The notes under the pieces: generated by a model
The model's input: the letters and a program-made list of their open reading frames with translations, nothing else
The model's database searches: none
What the model was told of the DNA's origin: nothing
Source: Caballeronia sp. TF1N1
Lineage (GTDB): Bacteria > Pseudomonadota > Gammaproteobacteria > Burkholderiales > Burkholderiaceae
Direction: 5' to 3'
NCBI RefSeq assembly: GCF_022878925.1
Contig: NZ_CP084627.1
Location: 62,001-126,000 of the forward strand
Length of the DNA stretch: 64,000 bases
Position numbers and translations under genes: made by a program
In this document: piece after piece, positions 6,799 to 51,027 of the stretch
How the letters are laid out: every line of letters starts with the position of its first letter
How positions within the stretch are numbered: the first letter of the stretch is position 1

Positions 6799-7764
6799 TC
6801 ATGCGGCGGCAGGCACGGCGCGCAACGCGCTGCGGTCCTGCCGCGGACTCGCATTGAAGCGCGCGCGATACGTCCGCGAAAAGTGCGACGGCGATTCGAA
6901 CCCGCACGCGACACACACGGCAAGTATCGACATATCGGTTTGCTGCAGCAGCTCGCGTGCGCGCGTGAGACGCAGCCCGAGATAAAAATGCGTCGGCGTG
7001 TCCTTTAGCGCGGTGCAGAACAGGCGTTCGAGCTGACGTCGCGTGACGCTGATGGATTGCGCGAGCTCATCGGGCGAAAGCGGCTCTTCCATATGCTGCT
7101 CCATCACGCCGATCACCTGAATCAACTTGCGATTGTGAATGCCATAGCGCGCCGCGATCTTCATGCGCTGATGGTCCGAGCGCTGCCTGATGCGCCCCAG
7201 CACGAACTGCTCCGACACTTGCGCCGCGAGTTCCGCGCCATGATCGCGCGCGATCAGATCCAGCATGAGGTCGATGGACGCAGTGCCGCCCGCGCACGTA
7301 ATGCGCCGCGTATCGATCTCGAACAACTCCTGGCTCGTTTCTATCGCGGGATAGCGCTCGGCGAAGGCCGCCGCCGCTTCCCAGTGCAACGTCGCGCGCT
7401 TGTCCGCGAGCAGGCCGGCTTCGGCGAGAATGAAGCTGCCCGTATCGATGCCGCCAAGCGTCGCGCCCGCGCGATCCAGCCGCTTCAACCACTCGCCGAT
7501 GCCGCGTGTATAGCGCGCGAGCGGCTCGAATCCCGATACGACGAACACGGTATCCGCGTGCGTCACGCTGTCGAACGCGCTTTCCGCATTCAGCGAGATG
7601 CCGTTGCTCGCGGCCACCGGCCCGCCATCGGGCGACAGGATATGCCAGCGATACAACTCGCCGCTGAAGCGATTTGCAACCCGCAAGGGCTCGATCGCCG
7701 ACATGAAGCCAATGGACGAGAACTCGGGCAGCAGCAGGAAGTGGAAGTCTTGGGGAACGGGCAT
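6799..7764 (-). CDS. cdhR: carnitine catabolism activator, AraC family with GATase1-like sensor domain
   Basis: 321 aa. Residues 1-200 form a DJ-1/PfpI (GlxA-type) class I glutamine-amidotransferase-like domain and residues about 215-315 an AraC DNA-binding domain (PLSPDELAQSISVTRRQLERLF and the second helix-turn-helix CGFESPSHFSRTYRARF). This architecture is that of CdhR, GbdR and ArgR-type activators. It is divergent from caiX-cdhCAB, as in Pseudomonas aeruginosa, where CdhR activates the operon in response to carnitine. Its target may be the direct repeat at 7866-7899. Confidence 0.88.
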   Translation of the reverse strand: MPVPQDFHFLLLPEFSSIGFMSAIEPLRVANRFSGELYRWHILSPDGGPVAASNGISLNAESAFDSVTHADTVFVVSGFEPLARYTRGIGEWLKRLDRAGATLGGIDTGSFILAEAGLLADKRATLHWEAAAAFAERYPAIETSQELFEIDTRRITCAGGTASIDLMLDLIARDHGAELAAQVSEQFVLGRIRQRSDHQRMKIAARYGIHNRKLIQVIGVMEQHMEEPLSPDELAQSISVTRRQLERLFCTALKDTPTHFYLGLRLTRARELLQQTDMSILAVCVACGFESPSHFSRTYRARFNASPRQDRSALRAVPAAA

Positions 7765-7865
7765 CGAATGGCGTGTGGCACTTTGGACGAACGCTCCACG
7801 CTAGCAAGCACAAAAAGCCCGCGCAATCCGGCGTGGCCCGTATTCGCAGGCCTTTCTTCTAGCAC

Positions 7866-7899
7866 GTCGCATGCGGTCAAGTCGCGGTCGCAAGCGGTC
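7866..7899 (+). promoter_or_regulatory. candidate CdhR operator: two 13-bp direct repeats 21 bp apart
   Basis: GTCGCATGCGGTC (7866-7878) and GTCGCAAGCGGTC (7887-7899) differ at one base of 13 and start 21 bp apart, two helical turns on the same face. This is the usual geometry of AraC-family half-sites. They sit about 90-120 bp upstream of caiX and 100-135 bp upstream of cdhR. Pattern-based prediction. Confidence 0.6.
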
Positions 7900-7986
7900 G
7901 TTCGTTTGCCTTTATGCGGCGTTACTTTTGATGCACGCCGGCACGACGAACCGGCATCCAATGAACCCTCACCGGAACAGCACGCC

Positions 7987-8946
7987 ATGAGACATCGCCT
8001 GGTTTCGAAACTGCTCCTGACCGGCGTCTGTGCCGCGACCGCACTGACTCACGGCGCCTTCGCGCTTGCCGCCGATGACGCGAGCTGCCGCAACGTCCGC
8101 TTCGTGGATATCGGCTGGACGGACATCACGTCGACGACCGCGCTCGCTTCCGTCGTCTTCGAAGGGCTCGGTTATGCGCCGAAGACCACGGTCGCCTCCG
8201 TGCCCATTTCGCTCGCGGGTCTGAAGAGCAAGCAGATCGACGTGTCGCTCGGCTACTGGTGGCCGGTGCAGGAAAAGGCGGTCGAGCCGTTCCTCGAATC
8301 GAAGAGCATTCAGAAGCTCGATCCGCCGAATCTCTCTGGCGCGAAGGCCACGCTTGCCGTGCCGAGCTATGCGTATGACGCGGGCATCAAGTCGTTCGCG
8401 GATATCGCCAAGCATCGCGATGAGCTCGACGGCAAGATCTACGGCATCGAACCGGGCAGCAGCGCAAACGCCAAGATTCAGAAGATGATCGACACGAATC
8501 AGTTCGGGCTCGGCGGATTCAAGCTCGTGCAATCGAGCGAGGCGGGCATGCTGGTGACGGTGGAACGCGCCATTCGCGACAAGAAGCCGGTCGTGTTTTT
8601 GGGCTGGGAGCCTCATCCCATGAACATTCAGATGAAGATCAACTATCTAGCCGGCGGCGATGAAGTCTTCGGCCCCAACTATGGCGAAGCGCGCGTCTAC
8701 ACGCTCACGAATACCGACTTCCTCACGCGCTGCCCGAACGCCGGCAAGTTCGTATCGAATCTCAAGTTCAATACCGATCTCGAAAACCGTCTCATGGAAC
8801 CGGTGATGAACAAGGAACGCCCCGCCGAAGCGGCAAAGGCGTATCTCAAGAAGAATCCGCAGGTGCTCGATTCATGGCTTGCGGGCGTGAAGACCGTCGA
8901 TGGCAAGGATGGTCTGCCAGCGGTGAAGCAATACCTCGGACTTTGA
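7987..8946 (+). CDS. caiX: carnitine ABC transporter periplasmic binding protein
   Basis: 319 aa from ATG 7987, chosen because a signal peptide (cleavage near ALAADD) begins there; the reading frame stays open far upstream but reads through the cdhR region without homology. OpuAC-type fold with aromatic cage elements DIGWTD, LGYWWPVQ, VPSYAY and LGWEPHP. First gene of the carnitine operon, as in Pseudomonas. It supplies carnitine to a core ABC permease/ATPase encoded elsewhere. Clearly paralogous to the choline-type protein at 3005-3952. Confidence 0.92.
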   Translation: MRHRLVSKLLLTGVCAATALTHGAFALAADDASCRNVRFVDIGWTDITSTTALASVVFEGLGYAPKTTVASVPISLAGLKSKQIDVSLGYWWPVQEKAVEPFLESKSIQKLDPPNLSGAKATLAVPSYAYDAGIKSFADIAKHRDELDGKIYGIEPGSSANAKIQKMIDTNQFGLGGFKLVQSSEAGMLVTVERAIRDKKPVVFLGWEPHPMNIQMKINYLAGGDEVFGPNYGEARVYTLTNTDFLTRCPNAGKFVSNLKFNTDLENRLMEPVMNKERPAEAAKAYLKKNPQVLDSWLAGVKTVDGKDGLPAVKQYLGL

Positions 8947-8969
8947 ACTGAATAAGGACAAGCGCCACC

Positions 8970-9899
8970 ATGAACCATGACGTGATCGTGACCTGCGCGG
9001 TAACGGGAGCAGGCGACACAACGGCCAGACATCCGGCAATACCCGTCACGCCCAGGCAGATTGCCGAAGCGGCTATCGAGGCCGCGCGTGCGGGCGCGAC
9101 CGTGGCGCATTGCCATGTGCGCGATCCGCAAACCGGGCGCGGCAGCCGCGACCCGGCGCTGTATCGCGAAGTAGTGGATCGCATTCGTTCATCGGATGTC
9201 GATGTCATCATCAACTTGACGGCGGGCATGGGCGGCGATCTGGAAATCGGCGCGGGCGAAGAGCCGATGCGCTTCGGCAAGGGCACCGATCTCGTCGGCG
9301 GTCTCACGCGTCTTGCGCATGTCGAGGAACTGCTTCCGGAAATCTGCACGCTCGATTGCGGCACCCTCAATTTCGGCGATGGCGACTACATCTACGTCTC
9401 GACGCCCGCGCAACTCCGAGCCGGGGCAAAGCGCATCCAGCAGCTTGGCGTGAAGCCGGAACTCGAGATTTTCGATACCGGTCATCTCTGGTTCGCGAAT
9501 CAGTTGCTGAAGGAAGGCCTGCTCGATGCGCCGCCGCTCTTTCAGCTTTGCATGGGCATTCCTTGGGGCGCGCCGCCCGACACGGGCACCATGAAGGCCA
9601 TGGTCGATAACCTGCCGCCTGGCGCGCATTGGGCGGGCTTCGGTATCGGCCGCATGCAGATGCCGATGGTCGCGCAAGCCATGCTACTCGGCGGTCATGT
9701 GCGCGTGGGTCTCGAAGACAATCTGTGGCTCGATCGCGGCGTGCATGCGAGCAACGGTTCGCTCGTGCAGCGCGCGGTGGAGATCATCGAACGTCTTGGC
9801 GGACGCGCGCTCACGCCGGCGGAAGGGCGTCGCAAGCTCGGTTTGCCGGCGCGCGGCGAACGCTTGTTGGAGCGTCGCGCACTCGGGCAGTTGGCATAG
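8970..9899 (+). CDS. cdhC: 3-dehydrocarnitine:acetyl-CoA trimethylamine transferase (betainyl-CoA forming, BKACE family)
   Basis: 309 aa. BKACE enzymes cleave beta-keto acids with acetyl-CoA; CdhC converts 3-dehydrocarnitine plus acetyl-CoA into betainyl-CoA and acetoacetate. The zinc-ligand pair in AHCHVRDP (His47, His49), NLTAGMGG and the C-terminal VGLEDNLWL (catalytic/metal Glu region) are all present. Ribosome site and start lie 23 bp after caiX. Second gene of a caiX-cdhC-cdhA-cdhB operon. Confidence 0.93.
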
Positions 9900-45640: not shown

Positions 45641-46606
45641 ATGAAGGTTCTCATCACGGGAGGCGCAGGCTTCCTCGGGCAAAAGCTCGCCAAACGTCTG
45701 CTGGAAAAAGGCGAACTCGACGGCAAGCCGGTCACCGAACTCGTATTGCTCGATGTCGCGCGCCCGAGCGATGCCGCGCTTCTCGACGACAAGCGCGTCA
45801 AAGCCGAAACCGGCGACATCTCGGACAAGGCCACGCTCGAGCGCTACATCGATACGAAGACGGAAGCGATTTTTCATCTCGCGGCCATCGTGAGCGGCCA
45901 GGCGGAAGCCGACTTCGACCTCGGCATGAAGATCAATCTCGATGCCTCGCGCGCGCTGCTCGAAGTGTGCCGCGCGCGGGGCCACGTGCCGCGCGTCGTG
46001 TTCACGAGTTCGGTCGCGGTGTATGGCGGAACGCTGCCGGAAGTCGTGCAGGACGACACCGCGCTCAACCCGCAATCGTCGTATGGAACGCAGAAGGCCA
46101 TCGCGGAATTGCTGCTGTCCGATTTCTCACGGCGTGGTTTTGTCGATGGCCGCGTGCTGCGCCTGCCGACCATCAGCGTGCGGCCGGGCAAGCCGAACGC
46201 GGCGGCGTCGTCGTTTGCGAGCGGCATCATCCGCGAGCCGCTCAATGGCGAGCGCTCGGTATGTCCCGTCGATGGCGACACGCGCGTCTGGCTGCTCTCG
46301 CCGAAAAGCGCGGTGGACGCGCTCATCGCCGGATGCGAGATCGAGCGCGCGAAGCTGGGTCTTCGGCCAGTGATCAATCTGCCGGGGCTTTCGGTGAGCG
46401 TGAACGAGATGGTCGCGGCGCTGCGTGAAGTCGCGGGCGATGAAGTCGTGGCGCGCATCGACTTCGAGCCGGAGCCGCGCATCGAGAAGATCGTGGGAAG
46501 CTGGCCGGGCGCGTGGAATCCAGCGCGTGCTGAAGAACTCGGGCTCACGGGCGACAAGTCTTTCGCCGATGTGATTCGCGCGTATATCGCCGATCAGCGC
46601 GTTTGA
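45641..46606 (+). CDS. denD: D-erythronate dehydrogenase (extended SDR)
   Basis: 321 aa from ATG 45641 with AAAGGAGACGAC before it. Nucleotide site MKVLITGGAGFLGQKLAKRLL and the SDR active site SSVAVYGG with Tyr/Lys in SSYGTQKAIAELLL. DenD oxidises D-erythronate to 3-oxo-tetronate, entering the pathway at the kinase. Having both LtnD and DenD, this operon should handle L-threonate and D-erythronate. Last gene; a hairpin follows 8 bp after the stop. Confidence 0.92.
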   Translation: MKVLITGGAGFLGQKLAKRLLEKGELDGKPVTELVLLDVARPSDAALLDDKRVKAETGDISDKATLERYIDTKTEAIFHLAAIVSGQAEADFDLGMKINLDASRALLEVCRARGHVPRVVFTSSVAVYGGTLPEVVQDDTALNPQSSYGTQKAIAELLLSDFSRRGFVDGRVLRLPTISVRPGKPNAAASSFASGIIREPLNGERSVCPVDGDTRVWLLSPKSAVDALIAGCEIERAKLGLRPVINLPGLSVSVNEMVAALREVAGDEVVARIDFEPEPRIEKIVGSWPGAWNPARAEELGLTGDKSFADVIRAYIADQRV

Positions 46607-46614
46607 ATGAGGCA

Positions 46615-46638
46615 GGGCGCCGTGTTTTCACGGCGTCC
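46615..46638 (+). terminator. hairpin after denD, probable operon terminator
   Basis: A 10-bp stem with one G-U pair (46615-46624 with 46629-46638) closed by a TTTT loop, eight bases after the denD stop. There is no U-tail, so it may need Rho or serve as a 3-prime stabiliser. It separates the acid-sugar operon from the DedA gene. Confidence 0.55.
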
Positions 46639-46686
46639 GCGCGAGCCAACCCGCAGCGCACCCGGCAACCGCCCCAAAGGTTGCAC

Positions 46687-46702
46687 GATGCAAGCTTGTA
46701 TC
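46687..46702. promoter_or_regulatory. candidate operator (copy 2) upstream of the DedA-rhodanese operon
   Basis: GATGCAAGCTTGTATC, half-sites GATNCAA and TTGNATC. Its core differs at one base of 14 from the element just before the GntR gene at 41097-41110. It lies 175 bp before the DedA start and just upstream of a possible -10 box TACACT (46715-46720). The -35 for that box is weak, as expected if the operator covers it. Confidence 0.5.
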
Positions 46703-46876
46703 CCCTTTCCGCGCTACACTCCTCCCTTAAATGTGACGAACGCCGGTCCGGCGCCGCGTGCACCGCAGTGAACCACGAGCGGTAGCCTGCTCGTTTCTCA
46801 TTCCAGCGCCGATCTGCGCTGCCGCCACGCGCAAAACCCGTCGTCTCGTCAGGCTGCCCCTTGCGCGGAGAATCCC

Positions 46877-48004
46877 ATGTTGCTCCACCAGCTCGTCGAT
46901 CGATTCGGCCCGTTGATCGTATTCGTCAATGTGATGGGCGCGGCGCTCGGGCTGCCCGTGCCCGCCATGCCAACGATGATCGTCGTCGGCGCGTCCATCG
47001 CGCTGATGGCGGTGAATGGCGCGGCGTTCTGGCCACCGCTCATCGGTGTTCTGTGCGTGGCGGTCGCGGGCGGCGTGATCGGCGATCTCGTCTGGTTCCA
47101 AGGCGGCCGCAAATACGGCGACCGCACGCTCAAGACCATCTGCAAGCTCTCGCTGTCGCGCGATACCTGCGTCAAGAAAACCGAGCGCTTCTTCGGCCGG
47201 TGGGGCGTGCGCATTCTGCTCGTGGCGAAGTTCATTCCCGGTTTGTCGCTCGTGTCCGTGCCGCTCGCGGGCGCCATGGGCGTGAAGCTGCGCAGCTTCA
47301 TTACCTGGGACGGTCTTGGCATTGCGCTGTGGGGCACGGTTGGCCTTACGGTCGGCGTGCTGTTCGCGGCCGAACTGGAAATGGTCTTCGCCATGATTTC
47401 GCAACTCGGCCGGCAGGCCATCATGGTCGTCGCGGTGCTGCTCGCGGTGTATGTGGCGTATCGCTGGTGGCGTCGCCGCGCGCTCATGGCGACGCTGGAA
47501 AAAGCGCGCATCAGCGTGGACACGCTTTACACGATGATGCGCGACGAACCCGTGCCGGTGATCTTCGATATCCGCTCGCCGGAAAAGCGCATGCTCGATC
47601 CGTTCACGATTCCCGGCTCCGTGTTCGCCGATGAACGCGAGTTGGCGAAGATCATTGAAAACTACGACAAGTCGCGCAAGATCGTCATCTACTGTTCGTG
47701 CCCGAATGAAGTGTCCGCTGCGTGGATGGCGAAGACCATGCGCAACGCGGGCTTCAACGATGTCGTGCCGCTCACGGGCGGGCTCGATGCCTGGCGTCTC
47801 GCCGGCTTCGATGTCGCGAAGCTGACCGAGTTCGGCCAGATCGTCGCGGCCACGCCGGAAGAAGTCGCCGAGATGGCGGCAATGTGCCCGTGGCCCGTGA
47901 AACAGGCGCCGGGCGCATCGGCTGCGGCGTCTTCCGCGACGGCGGCATCCACGGGCTCCGCATCCTTGCATGAAGCTGGTTTTCCACACGGAGATCGCGC
48001 ATGA
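46877..48004 (+). CDS. DedA-family membrane protein fused to a rhodanese domain
   Basis: 375 aa. Residues 1-200 form a DedA/VTT membrane domain with about four to five hydrophobic segments and the motif RFFGRWGVRILLVAKFIPGLS (103-124). A basic stop (YRWWRRR, 195-201) is followed by a cytoplasmic rhodanese domain (about 215-315): VIFDIRSPEK, then the active loop IYCSCPNEVSAA with Cys273 and a second Cys275, and LTGGLDAWRLAGF. A disordered Ala/Ser tail ends the protein. Translationally coupled (ATGA) to the flavoprotein that follows. DedA proteins act as lipid or undecaprenyl-phosphate translocases; the fused sulfur-carrier domain suggests redox or persulfide sensing, but function is unknown. 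Confidence 0.88.
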   Translation: MLLHQLVDRFGPLIVFVNVMGAALGLPVPAMPTMIVVGASIALMAVNGAAFWPPLIGVLCVAVAGGVIGDLVWFQGGRKYGDRTLKTICKLSLSRDTCVKKTERFFGRWGVRILLVAKFIPGLSLVSVPLAGAMGVKLRSFITWDGLGIALWGTVGLTVGVLFAAELEMVFAMISQLGRQAIMVVAVLLAVYVAYRWWRRRALMATLEKARISVDTLYTMMRDEPVPVIFDIRSPEKRMLDPFTIPGSVFADERELAKIIENYDKSRKIVIYCSCPNEVSAAWMAKTMRNAGFNDVVPLTGGLDAWRLAGFDVAKLTEFGQIVAATPEEVAEMAAMCPWPVKQAPGASAAASSATAASTGSASLHEAGFPHGDRA

Positions 48005-49803
48005 GTACAACCCCGAACAACGAGCACGGCGCGGATATGCCCAATGTCGTGGCATGGAGCGCGCGCGTGCCGTCGTCGGAAGATCCGAACGTCGTTCCGT
48101 CGACGACCGTCGTCGAGCCTGCGGCAGCGGATGAAAACGCGCCATATTCGCCGCTGAATTCGCGCATGCATCAGATGTTCCCCATCCTCACGGCGAACGA
48201 GATCGAACGCATGAGCCGCTTCGGCAGCGCGGCGCGCTGGCGCAAGGGCGAGTGGCTCTTTCGCACGGGCGATCTCGGGCGCGGCATGGTGATCGTGCTG
48301 AGCGGTTCGGTGCGCGTGACGCGGCGCGATGCGCTCGACCGCGTGCATCTGGTTGTCGAGCATGGTCCGGGCAATTTCCTGGCGGAAGTGGCGCAGCTTT
48401 CGGGCAAGCCGTGTCTCGTCGATGGCATGGCCGCCGAGGATGTCGAAGGCGTGGTGATCCCGCCCGAGCGTCTGCGCGCGCTGCTCGTCGCGGAAGCGGA
48501 ACTGGGCGAGCGCATCATGCGGGCGCTGATTCTGCGGCGCGTCGGCTTGATCGAAAAAGGCAGCGGACCGGTGCTGCTCGGCCAGTCCGACGATGGGCGT
48601 CTGGTTTCGCTGCAAGGTTTCTTGCGGCGCAACGGCCATCCGCACACGGTAATCGACGCGTGTACCGATCCCGATGCCATCGCGCTGCTCGAACGCATCT
48701 CGGCTTCGAAAGCCGACTTTCCCCTGGTGATCTGTCCGGACGGCACCGTATTGCGCGCGCCGACCGAGAACCAGGTGGCGACGCAACTCGGCTGGCTGCC
48801 GGAATTCGATCCGAGCCATGTCTACGATGTCGCGATCGTCGGCGCGGGACCGGCCGGGCTCGCCACGGCGGTGTATGCGGCGTCGGAGGGATTATCGGTT
48901 GCCGTGTTCGACTGCCGCGCGCCGGGCGGACAAGCGGGCGCGAGTTCGCGTATCGAAAACTATCTCGGCTTTCCGACCGGTATTTCAGGGCAAGCGCTTG
49001 CCGGACGCGCGTTCGTGCAGGCGCAGAAGTTCGGCGCGCATATCGCCATTCCCACGCGCATCAAGGCGCTGCATTGCGGTGCGACGCCCATTCGGATCGA
49101 ACTCGAGAACGGCACGTGCGTGGCGACGCAGACGGTGGTGATTGCATCGGGCGCGGCGTATCGGCGGCCAGCCATTGCCGGGCTCGAAAAGTACGAAGGG
49201 CATGGCACGTACTACTGGGCGTCGCCGGTCGAGGCCAAGTTGTGCAAGAACTCGGAAGTGGTGCTGGTCGGCGGCGGTAACTCGGCGGGACAGGCGGCCG
49301 TGTATCTCGCTTCGCACGCAAAGCACGTGGATGTGCTGATTCGCGGCGCGGGGCTCGCGGCCAGCATGTCGCATTATCTGGTCGAGCGCATTGCGTCCTT
49401 GCCGAACGTGACGGTGCGCACGCATACGGAGATCGCCTCGCTCGAAGGCGACGATCGCATGTTGAGCGCCGTCGTCTGCAAGACGCCGGAGGGGCCGTGG
49501 CGGCTCGAATCGCGGCATCTGTTTCTCTTCACGGGCGCGGACCCGAACACGGACTGGCTGACCAATTGCAACGTCAACACGGACGAGAAGGGTTTCGTGC
49601 TGACCGGGCCGGAAGCGCACGAGGGCCGCACGCAAGGCGTGATGATGCTGGAGACGAGCGTGCAGGGCGTGTTCGCCATCGGCGATGTCCGCTCGAGTTC
49701 GACCAAGCGCGTGGCGGCCGCGGTCGGCGAGGGTGCGGCGGTCGTCGCGCAGATACACGGCTTGCTCGCCCGGCGACAGGCGGTGCCTGCACCGGTTGCT
49801 TGA
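48001..49803 (+). CDS. three-part flavoprotein: CNMP-binding-like domain, thioredoxin-like linker, thioredoxin-reductase-like domain lacking CXXC
   Basis: 600 aa. Residues about 55-170 are a cyclic-nucleotide-binding-like beta barrel; the phosphate cassette reads NFLAEVAQLSGKPCLVDG, so the usual Arg is a Cys (138). Residues about 190-265 look like a thioredoxin fold without a CXXC. From 275 on it is thioredoxin-reductase-like: FAD site GAGPAGLATA (281-290), NAD(P)H site GGGNSAGQAA (424-433), GDVRSSSTKRVAAAVGEGA near the end. Where thioredoxin reductase has CATC the sequence is YWASPV (405-410), so thioredoxin cannot be the substrate by the normal route. Coupled to the DedA-rhodanese gene. Confidence 0.88.
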   Translation: MSTTPNNEHGADMPNVVAWSARVPSSEDPNVVPSTTVVEPAAADENAPYSPLNSRMHQMFPILTANEIERMSRFGSAARWRKGEWLFRTGDLGRGMVIVLSGSVRVTRRDALDRVHLVVEHGPGNFLAEVAQLSGKPCLVDGMAAEDVEGVVIPPERLRALLVAEAELGERIMRALILRRVGLIEKGSGPVLLGQSDDGRLVSLQGFLRRNGHPHTVIDACTDPDAIALLERISASKADFPLVICPDGTVLRAPTENQVATQLGWLPEFDPSHVYDVAIVGAGPAGLATAVYAASEGLSVAVFDCRAPGGQAGASSRIENYLGFPTGISGQALAGRAFVQAQKFGAHIAIPTRIKALHCGATPIRIELENGTCVATQTVVIASGAAYRRPAIAGLEKYEGHGTYYWASPVEAKLCKNSEVVLVGGGNSAGQAAVYLASHAKHVDVLIRGAGLAASMSHYLVERIASLPNVTVRTHTEIASLEGDDRMLSAVVCKTPEGPWRLESRHLFLFTGADPNTDWLTNCNVNTDEKGFVLTGPEAHEGRTQGVMMLETSVQGVFAIGDVRSSSTKRVAAAVGEGAAVVAQIHGLLARRQAVPAPVA

Positions 49804-49806
49804 TGA

Positions 49807-49832
49807 AAAAGCCCCGCATTCGCGGGGCTTTT
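49807..49832. terminator. bidirectional rho-independent terminator
   Basis: AAAAGCCCCGC, loop ATTC, GCGGGGCTTTT between the ends of the convergent flavoprotein and porin genes. T-runs are present on both strands, so it serves both. Confidence 0.92.
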
Positions 49833-49857
49833 CGTTTGAGGCAGGCTCGAAAGCCGG

Positions 49858-51027
49858 TCAGAACCGATGCCGCAAGCCGACGCGCGTGACGAACTGCGTG
49901 TTCGCTCCGGCACTCTGGCCGATAAAGGCCGTCGACGAGCCAATTTCCGCTTGCACCGGCACATTGCGGCCGGCAACCGTGTTGCTGCCCGACGCCTTCT
50001 GATAGATGCCGAGCAAATACACATCGGTGCGCTTGGACAACGCGTAATCCACCGCGCCGTTGATCTGATGCCATTTGCCTTCGAAGTTGTCGTCGAGCTT
50101 TGAGAACGTATAGCCGAGACCCGCGCTGAACGCCGGCGTGATGTTGTACTTGCCGCCGATTTCGTAGTTGTTCAACTTCGACGATGCCGCGACCAGCGGT
50201 TCGAACGTCGTATGCGTCCAGTTCGCCCAGACCGTGGCCGCGGAGAACGTGTAGCGCGCGCCGACGCCATAGGTTTCGAGATCGCGCAGGCCGCCCGTGG
50301 CGATGTTCGCGATGTTCGTGCTGAATGCAGGCGTCGCGCCATTCGGGAAGCGGATGTTGGTGTACGCCGCGCCGATGCCGAACGGTCCCTGGTTGTAGTT
50401 CAAACCGAAGCTGTACGTGCTCGACGAACCTTGCGTCGCGCCCGCGCCCGTGGTGGTCGGCGTGCCCGCGAATTGCGTCGAATTGGAAAAGCCGTACATG
50501 GCGCCGAAGGTTACGCCATAGAAGCTCGCGCTGTTGAACTTCACCGAGTTGTTGATACGGCTCGAAGTCAACTGATCCAGATCGTTGATGTGGTACGCGT
50601 AATTGCCGGCGGGCGTTTGGCTGCCCATCGTGTAATTGCCGCCGATGACATCGGTGGAGAACGAATACTGGCGACCGAAGGTCAGCGCGCCGACATCGTT
50701 CTTCGACAGACCGACGAAGGCTTGCCGGCCGAATTCCGCGCCGCCTTGGCCGAGCGTGCCATCGCCGCTATTGAAGCCGCTTTCCAGGACGAAGATGGCC
50801 TTGAGCCCGCCGCCCAGATCTTCCTGTCCGCGCAGACCCCAGCGGCTGCCTGATGCAACGCCGTCGCCGTACTTCACGAGGCTGTCGTGGCTATTCGGTC
50901 CGGTCGAAACCTTGTTCGCATAGGTGATACCGGCGTCGATCAGGCCGTAAAGCGTGACGCTGCTTTGCGCATGCGCGGCCATGCCGAAGGTCCCGAGGAT
51001 GGCGAGCGCCAGGATTTTCTGCTTCAT
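49858..51027 (-). CDS. outer-membrane porin (general trimeric porin)
   Basis: 389 aa from ATG 51027, with AAGGAAAG before it and a signal peptide (MKQKILALAILGTFGMAAHA) after it. Mature start QSSVTLYGLIDAGITYANK, SRWGLRGQEDLGGGLKAIF and final strand ending RHRF. Same family as the porin at 5602-6786 but not a close copy: loops differ and this one has an extra Gly/Ala/Thr-rich loop. Substrate preference unknown. Confidence 0.94.
   Translation of the reverse strand: MKQKILALAILGTFGMAAHAQSSVTLYGLIDAGITYANKVSTGPNSHDSLVKYGDGVASGSRWGLRGQEDLGGGLKAIFVLESGFNSGDGTLGQGGAEFGRQAFVGLSKNDVGALTFGRQYSFSTDVIGGNYTMGSQTPAGNYAYHINDLDQLTSSRINNSVKFNSASFYGVTFGAMYGFSNSTQFAGTPTTTGAGATQGSSSTYSFGLNYNQGPFGIGAAYTNIRFPNGATPAFSTNIANIATGGLRDLETYGVGARYTFSAATVWANWTHTTFEPLVAASSKLNNYEIGGKYNITPAFSAGLGYTFSKLDDNFEGKWHQINGAVDYALSKRTDVYLLGIYQKASGSNTVAGRNVPVQAEIGSSTAFIGQSAGANTQFVTRVGLRHRF

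Follow-up and report, generated by a model that had tools for sequence, protein, structure and literature searches.

A conserved gene pair of the Burkholderiaceae linking a DedA-rhodanese fusion to a CXXC-less flavoprotein, and its possible role in persulfide reduction at the membrane

Two overlapping genes of Caballeronia sp. TF1N1, here called A and B, lie within a stretch of 64,000 nt (the window) in a 7.07-Mb genome whose nearest relatives, by protein and contig searches, are Caballeronia. Gene A encodes a DedA membrane domain fused to a rhodanese, and gene B a flavoprotein in which a cyclic nucleotide-binding (CNB)-like domain and a thioredoxin (Trx)-like linker precede a thioredoxin reductase (TrxR)-like core. 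The two genes and their 4-bp overlap had been described in an earlier note on this DNA, and both open reading frames are indeed present, on the same (+) strand and sharing the letters ATGA.

46877..48004, + strand: gene A, DedA (VTT)-rhodanese fusion, 375 aa (open reading frame and Pfam)
48001..49803, + strand: gene B, CNB-like, Trx-like and TrxR-like flavoprotein, 600 aa (open reading frame and Pfam)

Linkage of the two genes

The earlier note had called for a neighbourhood search, naming a lack of conserved adjacency in relatives as the outcome that would count against its proposal; the pair proved to be a conserved unit within the family, and that outcome did not arise. Among the best 80 of 354 matches to B, which are its closest relatives by design, A lies directly upstream on the same strand at 72 loci, with a spacing that ranges from the 4-bp overlap of most Caballeronia up to about 370 bp (L070), and is absent upstream at eight (L052-L056 and L058-L060). 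In evenly drawn samples of 150 genomes of the family and 274 of the class, searched at strict cut-offs (E<=1e-90 for B and E<=1e-45 for A), B occurs in 52 of the Burkholderiaceae genomes and is directly preceded by A in 35 of these, a count read off match coordinates by eye. Every genome of its own genus that has B carries the pair (15 of 15), as do those of four other genera (12 of 12, 3 of 3, 3 of 3 and 2 of 2). Beyond the pair the flanking genes form different clusters in three groups or more, of which two, with distinct upstream genes, belong to Caballeronia and one to Paraburkholderia and its kin; the flanks of several individual loci match none of these clusters. On a tree of B reduced from 129 to 42 rows by the removal of near-copies, the presence of an adjacent A changes five times, against a mean of 14.3 for shuffled labels, and one ancestral pairing with later losses would fit this tree. 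The linkage of A and B is well supported.

It is also probable that A and B work together. The alternative, that two independently useful stress proteins have been inherited side by side with no joint function, draws on the finding of each gene without the other, and on the position of some A-less B genes near oxidative-stress genes (old yellow enzyme (OYE) and OsmC genes upstream of B in L052, Dps and redoxin genes near B in L185). Retention of the pair while its flanks change argues against it, as do the overlap of the genes in most Caballeronia and the small number of changes on the tree, although shared descent alone can yield the last of these, and mere adjacency is considered unlikely. 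In Candidatus Burkholderia humilis, a plant symbiont (L041, about 6979-9786), the A frame is shortened and B is matched in two pieces; both genes look broken, and the pair may thus be decaying together.

One further feature lies beside the pair.

49807..49832, no strand assigned: perfect 11-bp hairpin, resembling a terminator, between the end of B and the porin gene that converges on it (sequence)

Folding of 49800-49842 gives this hairpin a minimum free energy of -22.5 kcal/mol (z -3.94), and it is absent from the output of a simple promoter and terminator scan; the same scan found no sigma-70-like promoter within 46560-49900, and no RNA element reached gathering scores within the window. The three neighbours scanned by Pfam encode an isomerase-like barrel, an epimerase and a porin. 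A defence-system reading was rejected, PADLOC giving no credible match.

The DedA-rhodanese fusion

47000..47356, + strand: VTT/DedA membrane domain, A residues 42-160 (PF09335, E 2.7e-12)
47141..47170, + strand: Cys89 and Cys98 (CX8C), near-invariant, in a polar DedA loop (alignment of 114 fusions)
47516..47797, + strand: rhodanese domain, A residues 214-307 (PF00581, E 3.5e-11)
47693..47701, + strand: CxC active loop, Cys273-Ser-Cys275 (alignment of fusions)

Both parts of A belong to their families, PF09335 scoring 47.7 bits against a gathering cut-off of 33.9 and PF00581 scoring 43.9 bits against a cut-off of 22.2 with the active-site cysteine in place. The fusion reported in the earlier note therefore stands; its description of the membrane domain as of lipid-translocase type finds no support. 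In YghB of E. coli, Glu39, Asp51, Arg130 and Arg136 have been shown to be essential for function (PMC10127716). When DedA-rhodanese fusions, mostly from Burkholderiaceae, were aligned with YghB and YqjA (115 rows, in which the window protein appears twice, recounted as 114 different proteins), the corresponding positions of A were found to be Ala, Met, Lys and Ser. Across the fusions the Asp51 position is acidic in 0 of 114 and the Arg136 position is never Arg (Ser in 103, Ala in 6, Gly in 4 and Asn in 1), Glu stands at the Glu39 position in 12, and position 130 is basic in all 114 (Lys in 105, Arg in 9). The signature of a COG0586 undecaprenyl-phosphate (UndP) flippase, with acidic residues at E39 and D51 and Arg at R130 and R136 on the reentrant tips, is not found in A, and because the D51 and R136 equivalents are missing in all 114, the fused DedA domains as a group are without the flippase residue set.

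These residues bear on two alternative views of the pair. If A were a redox-gated UndP flippase, the rhodanese and B would sense thiol stress and tune the recycling of cell-wall lipids; COG0586 DedA proteins have been proposed as flippases, with rhodanese fusions among them (PMC10127716), but the absence of acidic D51 and of Arg136 from every fusion makes this very improbable. Alternatively, the DedA domain might import a sulfur or selenium oxyanion or a sulfane-sulfur compound, with the rhodanese capturing sulfur inside and B only recycling thiols. A link of DedA to selenite is said to exist in Cupriavidus. DedA domains resemble transporters (PMC10127716), and one basic substrate-site residue is kept as Lys or Arg throughout the fusions; however, A has neither of the acidic residues thought to bind protons, and Pfam picked out no gene for transport or sulfur metabolism among the neighbours scanned, so that import seems a rather improbable role.

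A pair of cysteines marks the fused DedA domains, Cys89 in 111 and Cys98 in 110 of the 114 fusions, within a loop that precedes the second reentrant helix and probably lies on the cytoplasmic side. All four cysteines of A (89, 98, 273 and 275) occur together in 110 fusions. Not one of 14 control VTT proteins has CX8C, these being the ones whose frame matched the profile among 30 loci (16 were lost at that step) and in which the D51 column is unreliable. L228, from the same genome as the window, and L243 keep CxC and have no CX8C, L244 lacks Cys89, Cys98 and Cys275 together, and the Tyr at the Cys98 position in L041 stems from its shortened reading frame. One control, L245 (a 373-aa open frame), combines DedA with a weak match to rhodanese and has no CX8C; it is perhaps an independent DedA-rhodanese fusion, so that fusion to a rhodanese alone may not bring CX8C. 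Besides A, two DedA-rhodanese fusions lie on C1 of the same genome (L011, 45% identical, and L012, 36% identical), of which L012 keeps CxC and is without Cys89 and Cys98. At L177 (3952-5949) a DedA-rhodanese gene follows, by 45 bp, a glutathione-transferase-family gene with the corresponding domains by Pfam, which we take to resemble glutathionyl-hydroquinone reductase.

The two cysteines that the earlier note placed in the rhodanese loop are present, and the loop C273-S-C275-P-N-E is near-invariant (Cys273 in 114 of 114 and Cys275 in 113 of 114 fusions). From its position Cys273 would be the usual persulfide cysteine, and Cys275 may act as a resolving thiol. Short open frames in which the rhodanese loop is in view gave 17 rows (two of them one gene), and CxCP occurs in none; a search for rhodanese-only proteins gave 40 matches, which may include pieces of fusions. 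Among the PDB matches listed for the predicted structure of A are 3ilm, GlpE (1gmx), CoADR-RHD (3ict) and Npsr (3nta), the list covering the rhodanese domain. A selenoprotein link was considered and set aside, the rhodanese of A scoring 74.7 bits against NF041203 ('rhodanese_LYCAU'), under the cut-off of 115, no member above that cut-off being found in the 150 genomes searched, and a literature search on it bringing nothing useful; the name, from which alone we presume selenocysteine at the Cys275 position, was likewise not used as evidence.

The flavoprotein and its other partners

48235..48486, + strand: CNB-like domain, B residues 79-162, without the phosphate-binding Arg at 138 (PF00027, cNMP_binding, E 4.3e-15)
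48571..48786, + strand: thioredoxin/glutaredoxin-like linker, B residues 191-262, no CXXC (model secondary structure)
48823..49734, + strand: TrxR-like flavin adenine dinucleotide (FAD)/nicotinamide adenine dinucleotide (phosphate) (NAD(P)H) core, B residues 275-578 (Pyr_redox_2, E 2.3e-34)
49216..49245, + strand: lost-CXXC site W406-A-S-P-V410, with Glu411 and the relocated Cys415 (alignment with E. coli TrxB)

The alignment of B holds 130 rows, of which 17 are duplicates or contained pieces, leaving 113 different proteins, again mostly from Burkholderiaceae. Sequences with internal stops and short sequences had been dropped from the material analysed, as had B matches spanning fewer than 450 residues. 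Going by the motif, residue 138 is presumably the place of the phosphate-binding Arg in domains that bind cyclic AMP. Arg stands there in 0 of 113 proteins, Ala in 61 and Cys in 35, and B therefore lacks the mark of a cyclic AMP-binding domain; the missing Arg of the earlier note is borne out across these proteins, whereas the Cys138 to which it drew attention, present in that minority, is not conserved, and a role for it finds no support. The linker has, in the predicted model, the order beta-alpha-beta-alpha-beta-beta-alpha, and CXXC is found in its first helix in 0 of 130 rows, as expected of the Trx-like linker without CXXC that had been proposed. The core has the TrxR fold with its FAD and NAD(P)H motifs, so that B keeps the nucleotide motifs and is without the usual disulfide, also as first described.

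Alignment with E. coli TrxB (MG1655 record, precursor numbering) places the CXXC of residues 136-139 at W406-A-S-(P)-V410 of B, with one residue inserted, and thus agrees with the replacement by YWASPV noted earlier; Asp140 corresponds to Glu411, Phe142-Phe143 to Lys413-Leu414, and Tyr144 to Cys415. CXXC is missing from the TrxR position in all 130 rows, and the one CXXC close by, which in L053 starts at residue 415, falls after it. Glu411 is present in all 113 different proteins, Cys415 and Cys245 in 112 each, Cys359 in 107 and Cys523 in 102, and these residues, like Cys89 and Cys98 of A, were absent from the earlier note. The exception at Cys415 is Val in a 58% identical paralogue in the same genome (L002/L163, C4:644977-646623), whose 4.6-kb locus holds no A and which has lost Cys359, Cys415 and Cys523 and kept Glu411 and Cys245. 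Relatives in Rhodococcus, Nocardia, rhizobia, Novosphingobium and Nostoc likewise have Glu411 and Cys415. A role for the acid beside the CXXC comes from work on TrxR. Against TIGR01292 (thioredoxin-disulfide reductase) B scores 195.5 bits, below the curated cut-off of 343.45, and since CXXC is absent while Glu411 and Cys415 are kept, the name 'thioredoxin-disulfide reductase' given to the Novosphingobium relative misfits the active site. B shows the combination of CNB domain, CXXC-less Trx-like domain and TrxR-like core with an E-A-x-x-C motif that defines its family.

TrxR-like ferredoxin-NADP reductases are not known to have a CXXC. One could accordingly imagine that B, like those enzymes, reduces a non-thiol acceptor (a quinone, ferredoxin or small electrophile) directly from its flavin, with A a separate sulfurtransferase kept close for regulation. 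Enzymes of this type exist (PMC10294844), the CXXC has been lost across the B family, and the Phe-Phe that forms the Trx-binding motif (PMC9025218) has become Lys-Leu in B. Such an acceptor is distinctly unlikely, however, given that Glu411 and Cys415 are kept beside the former disulfide site and that Rhodococcus and Nocardia have a thioredoxin gene at the second place upstream of B.

Of the 16 annotated B regions that were viewed, whose gene tables are incomplete, 6 have a zf-UBP gene immediately upstream of B. TrxA and ClpB precede zf-UBP in the Rhodococcus and Nocardia regions, and their plasmids (L275 and L276) share a run of J-domain, CbpM, ClpB, TrxA, zf-UBP and B-type flavoprotein genes, which suggests a link of the flavoprotein family with thiol and protein-folding stress. 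Pfam gives a further zf-UBP neighbour of B in L175, from a genome of the same class, and some B regions without zf-UBP are close to Dps, redoxin, ferritin-like or OYE genes. Within the Burkholderiaceae, zf-UBP was found in 13 of 150 genomes and adjoins B in none, coordinates being compared by eye. It is conceivable, though unlikely, that members of this widespread family swap partners: having given up their own disulfide, they would borrow the missing part of the active site from a thiol or zinc-thiolate protein whose gene lies directly upstream. In Actinobacteria this would be thioredoxin with zf-UBP, in rhizobia zf-UBP, and in Burkholderiaceae a CxC rhodanese on a repurposed, non-flippase DedA domain. 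The Burkholderiaceae form would then reduce persulfides at the membrane by means of two proteins, and a relay of Cys89/Cys98 and Cys273/Cys275 might connect cytoplasmic NAD(P)H with sulfur chemistry at the membrane.

A candidate persulfide reductase and known systems

The reading that we favour, though tentatively, is that A and B form a membrane-anchored, NAD(P)H-dependent sulfane-sulfur (persulfide) reductase. CoAPR of E. faecalis, a flavoprotein-rhodanese fusion, reduces coenzyme A (CoA) persulfide and needs Cys508 of its rhodanese and Cys42 at its flavin, which lie about 27 Å apart with CoA as the bridge (PMC9405070). The pair is read in this way because it has the ingredients of CoAPR split over two proteins; Npsr, CoADR-RHD and CoAPR, all rhodanese-flavoprotein fusions, reduce persulfides, and the match of the A model to their rhodanese domains would support the same chemistry by analogy. 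We infer a physical interaction, persulfide chemistry and an electron path along the following lines. The cycle would start with Cys273 of the rhodanese accepting sulfane sulfur to form a persulfide, which Cys275 would resolve, releasing sulfide and leaving a disulfide between Cys273 and Cys275 (or Cys89 and Cys98). B would receive electrons from NAD(P)H and, docked by way of its N-terminal domains, pass them from the flavin to this disulfide, the CxC of A substituting for the CXXC missing in B, with Glu411 as the putative acid and Cys415 perhaps as a lone relay thiol. The DedA domain would serve as membrane anchor and bearer of the second dithiol, and not as a canonical UndP flippase.

Several observations weigh against this proposal. 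Of the 52 family genomes with B, 17 have no A beside it; 11 of these belong to a single genus (g224, perhaps Cupriavidus), 5 to g246 and 1 to g232. An A-type gene (E<=1e-45, distant paralogues included) is present in 102 of 150 genomes as against the pair in 35. Applied to the 274 class genomes, these strict cut-offs gave B in 6 and A in 3, with both only in the genome studied here. The conserved cysteines of B are mostly present in B proteins lacking an adjacent A too, and so mark the flavoprotein and not the pairing. The predicted models are of moderate confidence (pLDDT, the predicted local distance difference test, 76 and 72), the isomerase-like barrel, epimerase and porin beside the pair give no pointer to sulfur, and 10 of the 16 annotated B regions, with their incomplete gene tables, have no zf-UBP directly upstream.

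A search of the open-licence literature found no paper on the A-B pair, or on the CNB-fused flavoprotein by its names, so that the earlier view of an undescribed function holds for the pair; it does not extend to DedA-rhodanese fusions as such, which are already named at NCBI and appear, unexplained, in print. A 2023 survey of DedA proteins records such fusions and, where it mentions them, calls their connection to UndP unclear (PMC10127716). To that question the pair brings a concrete and testable answer, in that a fused DedA domain that has lost its flippase residues and bears a cysteine pair has, in one bacterial family, a flavoreductase of its own. Members of the B family named 'thioredoxin-disulfide reductase' can be without the disulfide and carry a single relocated cysteine, and new enzymology is needed for them.

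Among known proteins, A shares its two-domain architecture with those that NCBI names 'DedA family protein/thiosulfate sulfurtransferase GlpE', the name given to its relatives, and with PA1209 of P. aeruginosa, a DedA-rhodanese fusion to which the part of the paper that treats it assigns no function (PMC12893004). A 311-aa plasmid protein of P. aeruginosa (L191), likened to PA1209 by length alone, has CX8C and CxC as in A; unlike A, the plasmid DedA-rhodanese genes have no B-type neighbour in the three regions viewed. An oxidoreductase convergent to the L191 gene was rejected as a counterpart of B, being monooxygenase-like and without a CNB domain, with a best local match to B of E 0.039. A resembles YghB and YqjA (COG0586) in its VTT domain and in the basic residue at position 130, whereas A-type fusions differ from them in the missing D51 and R136, the rarity of E39, the extra cysteines and the rhodanese. 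B differs from low-Mr thioredoxin reductase and AhpF in having no CXXC in either core or Trx-like domain, in the loss of Phe-Phe and in the added CNB-like domain, and is a member of a family of CNB-fused 'FAD-dependent oxidoreductases' with the same domains and E-A-x-x-C motif, some of which are named 'cyclic nucleotide-binding domain-containing thioredoxin-disulfide reductase'; such relatives, in the further lineages viewed, follow zf-UBP or unrelated genes and not a DedA-rhodanese gene. CoAPR (8a56), Npsr (3nta) and CoADR-RHD (3icr) are each a single soluble fusion of another flavoprotein family with a CoA arm, whereas A and B are not one chain but two genes, with a domain in the membrane, a core of the TrxR-like type and CxC in the rhodanese loop. 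What appears new is a two-gene membrane version of the flavoprotein-rhodanese couple, with a repurposed DedA domain and four near-invariant cysteines in A.

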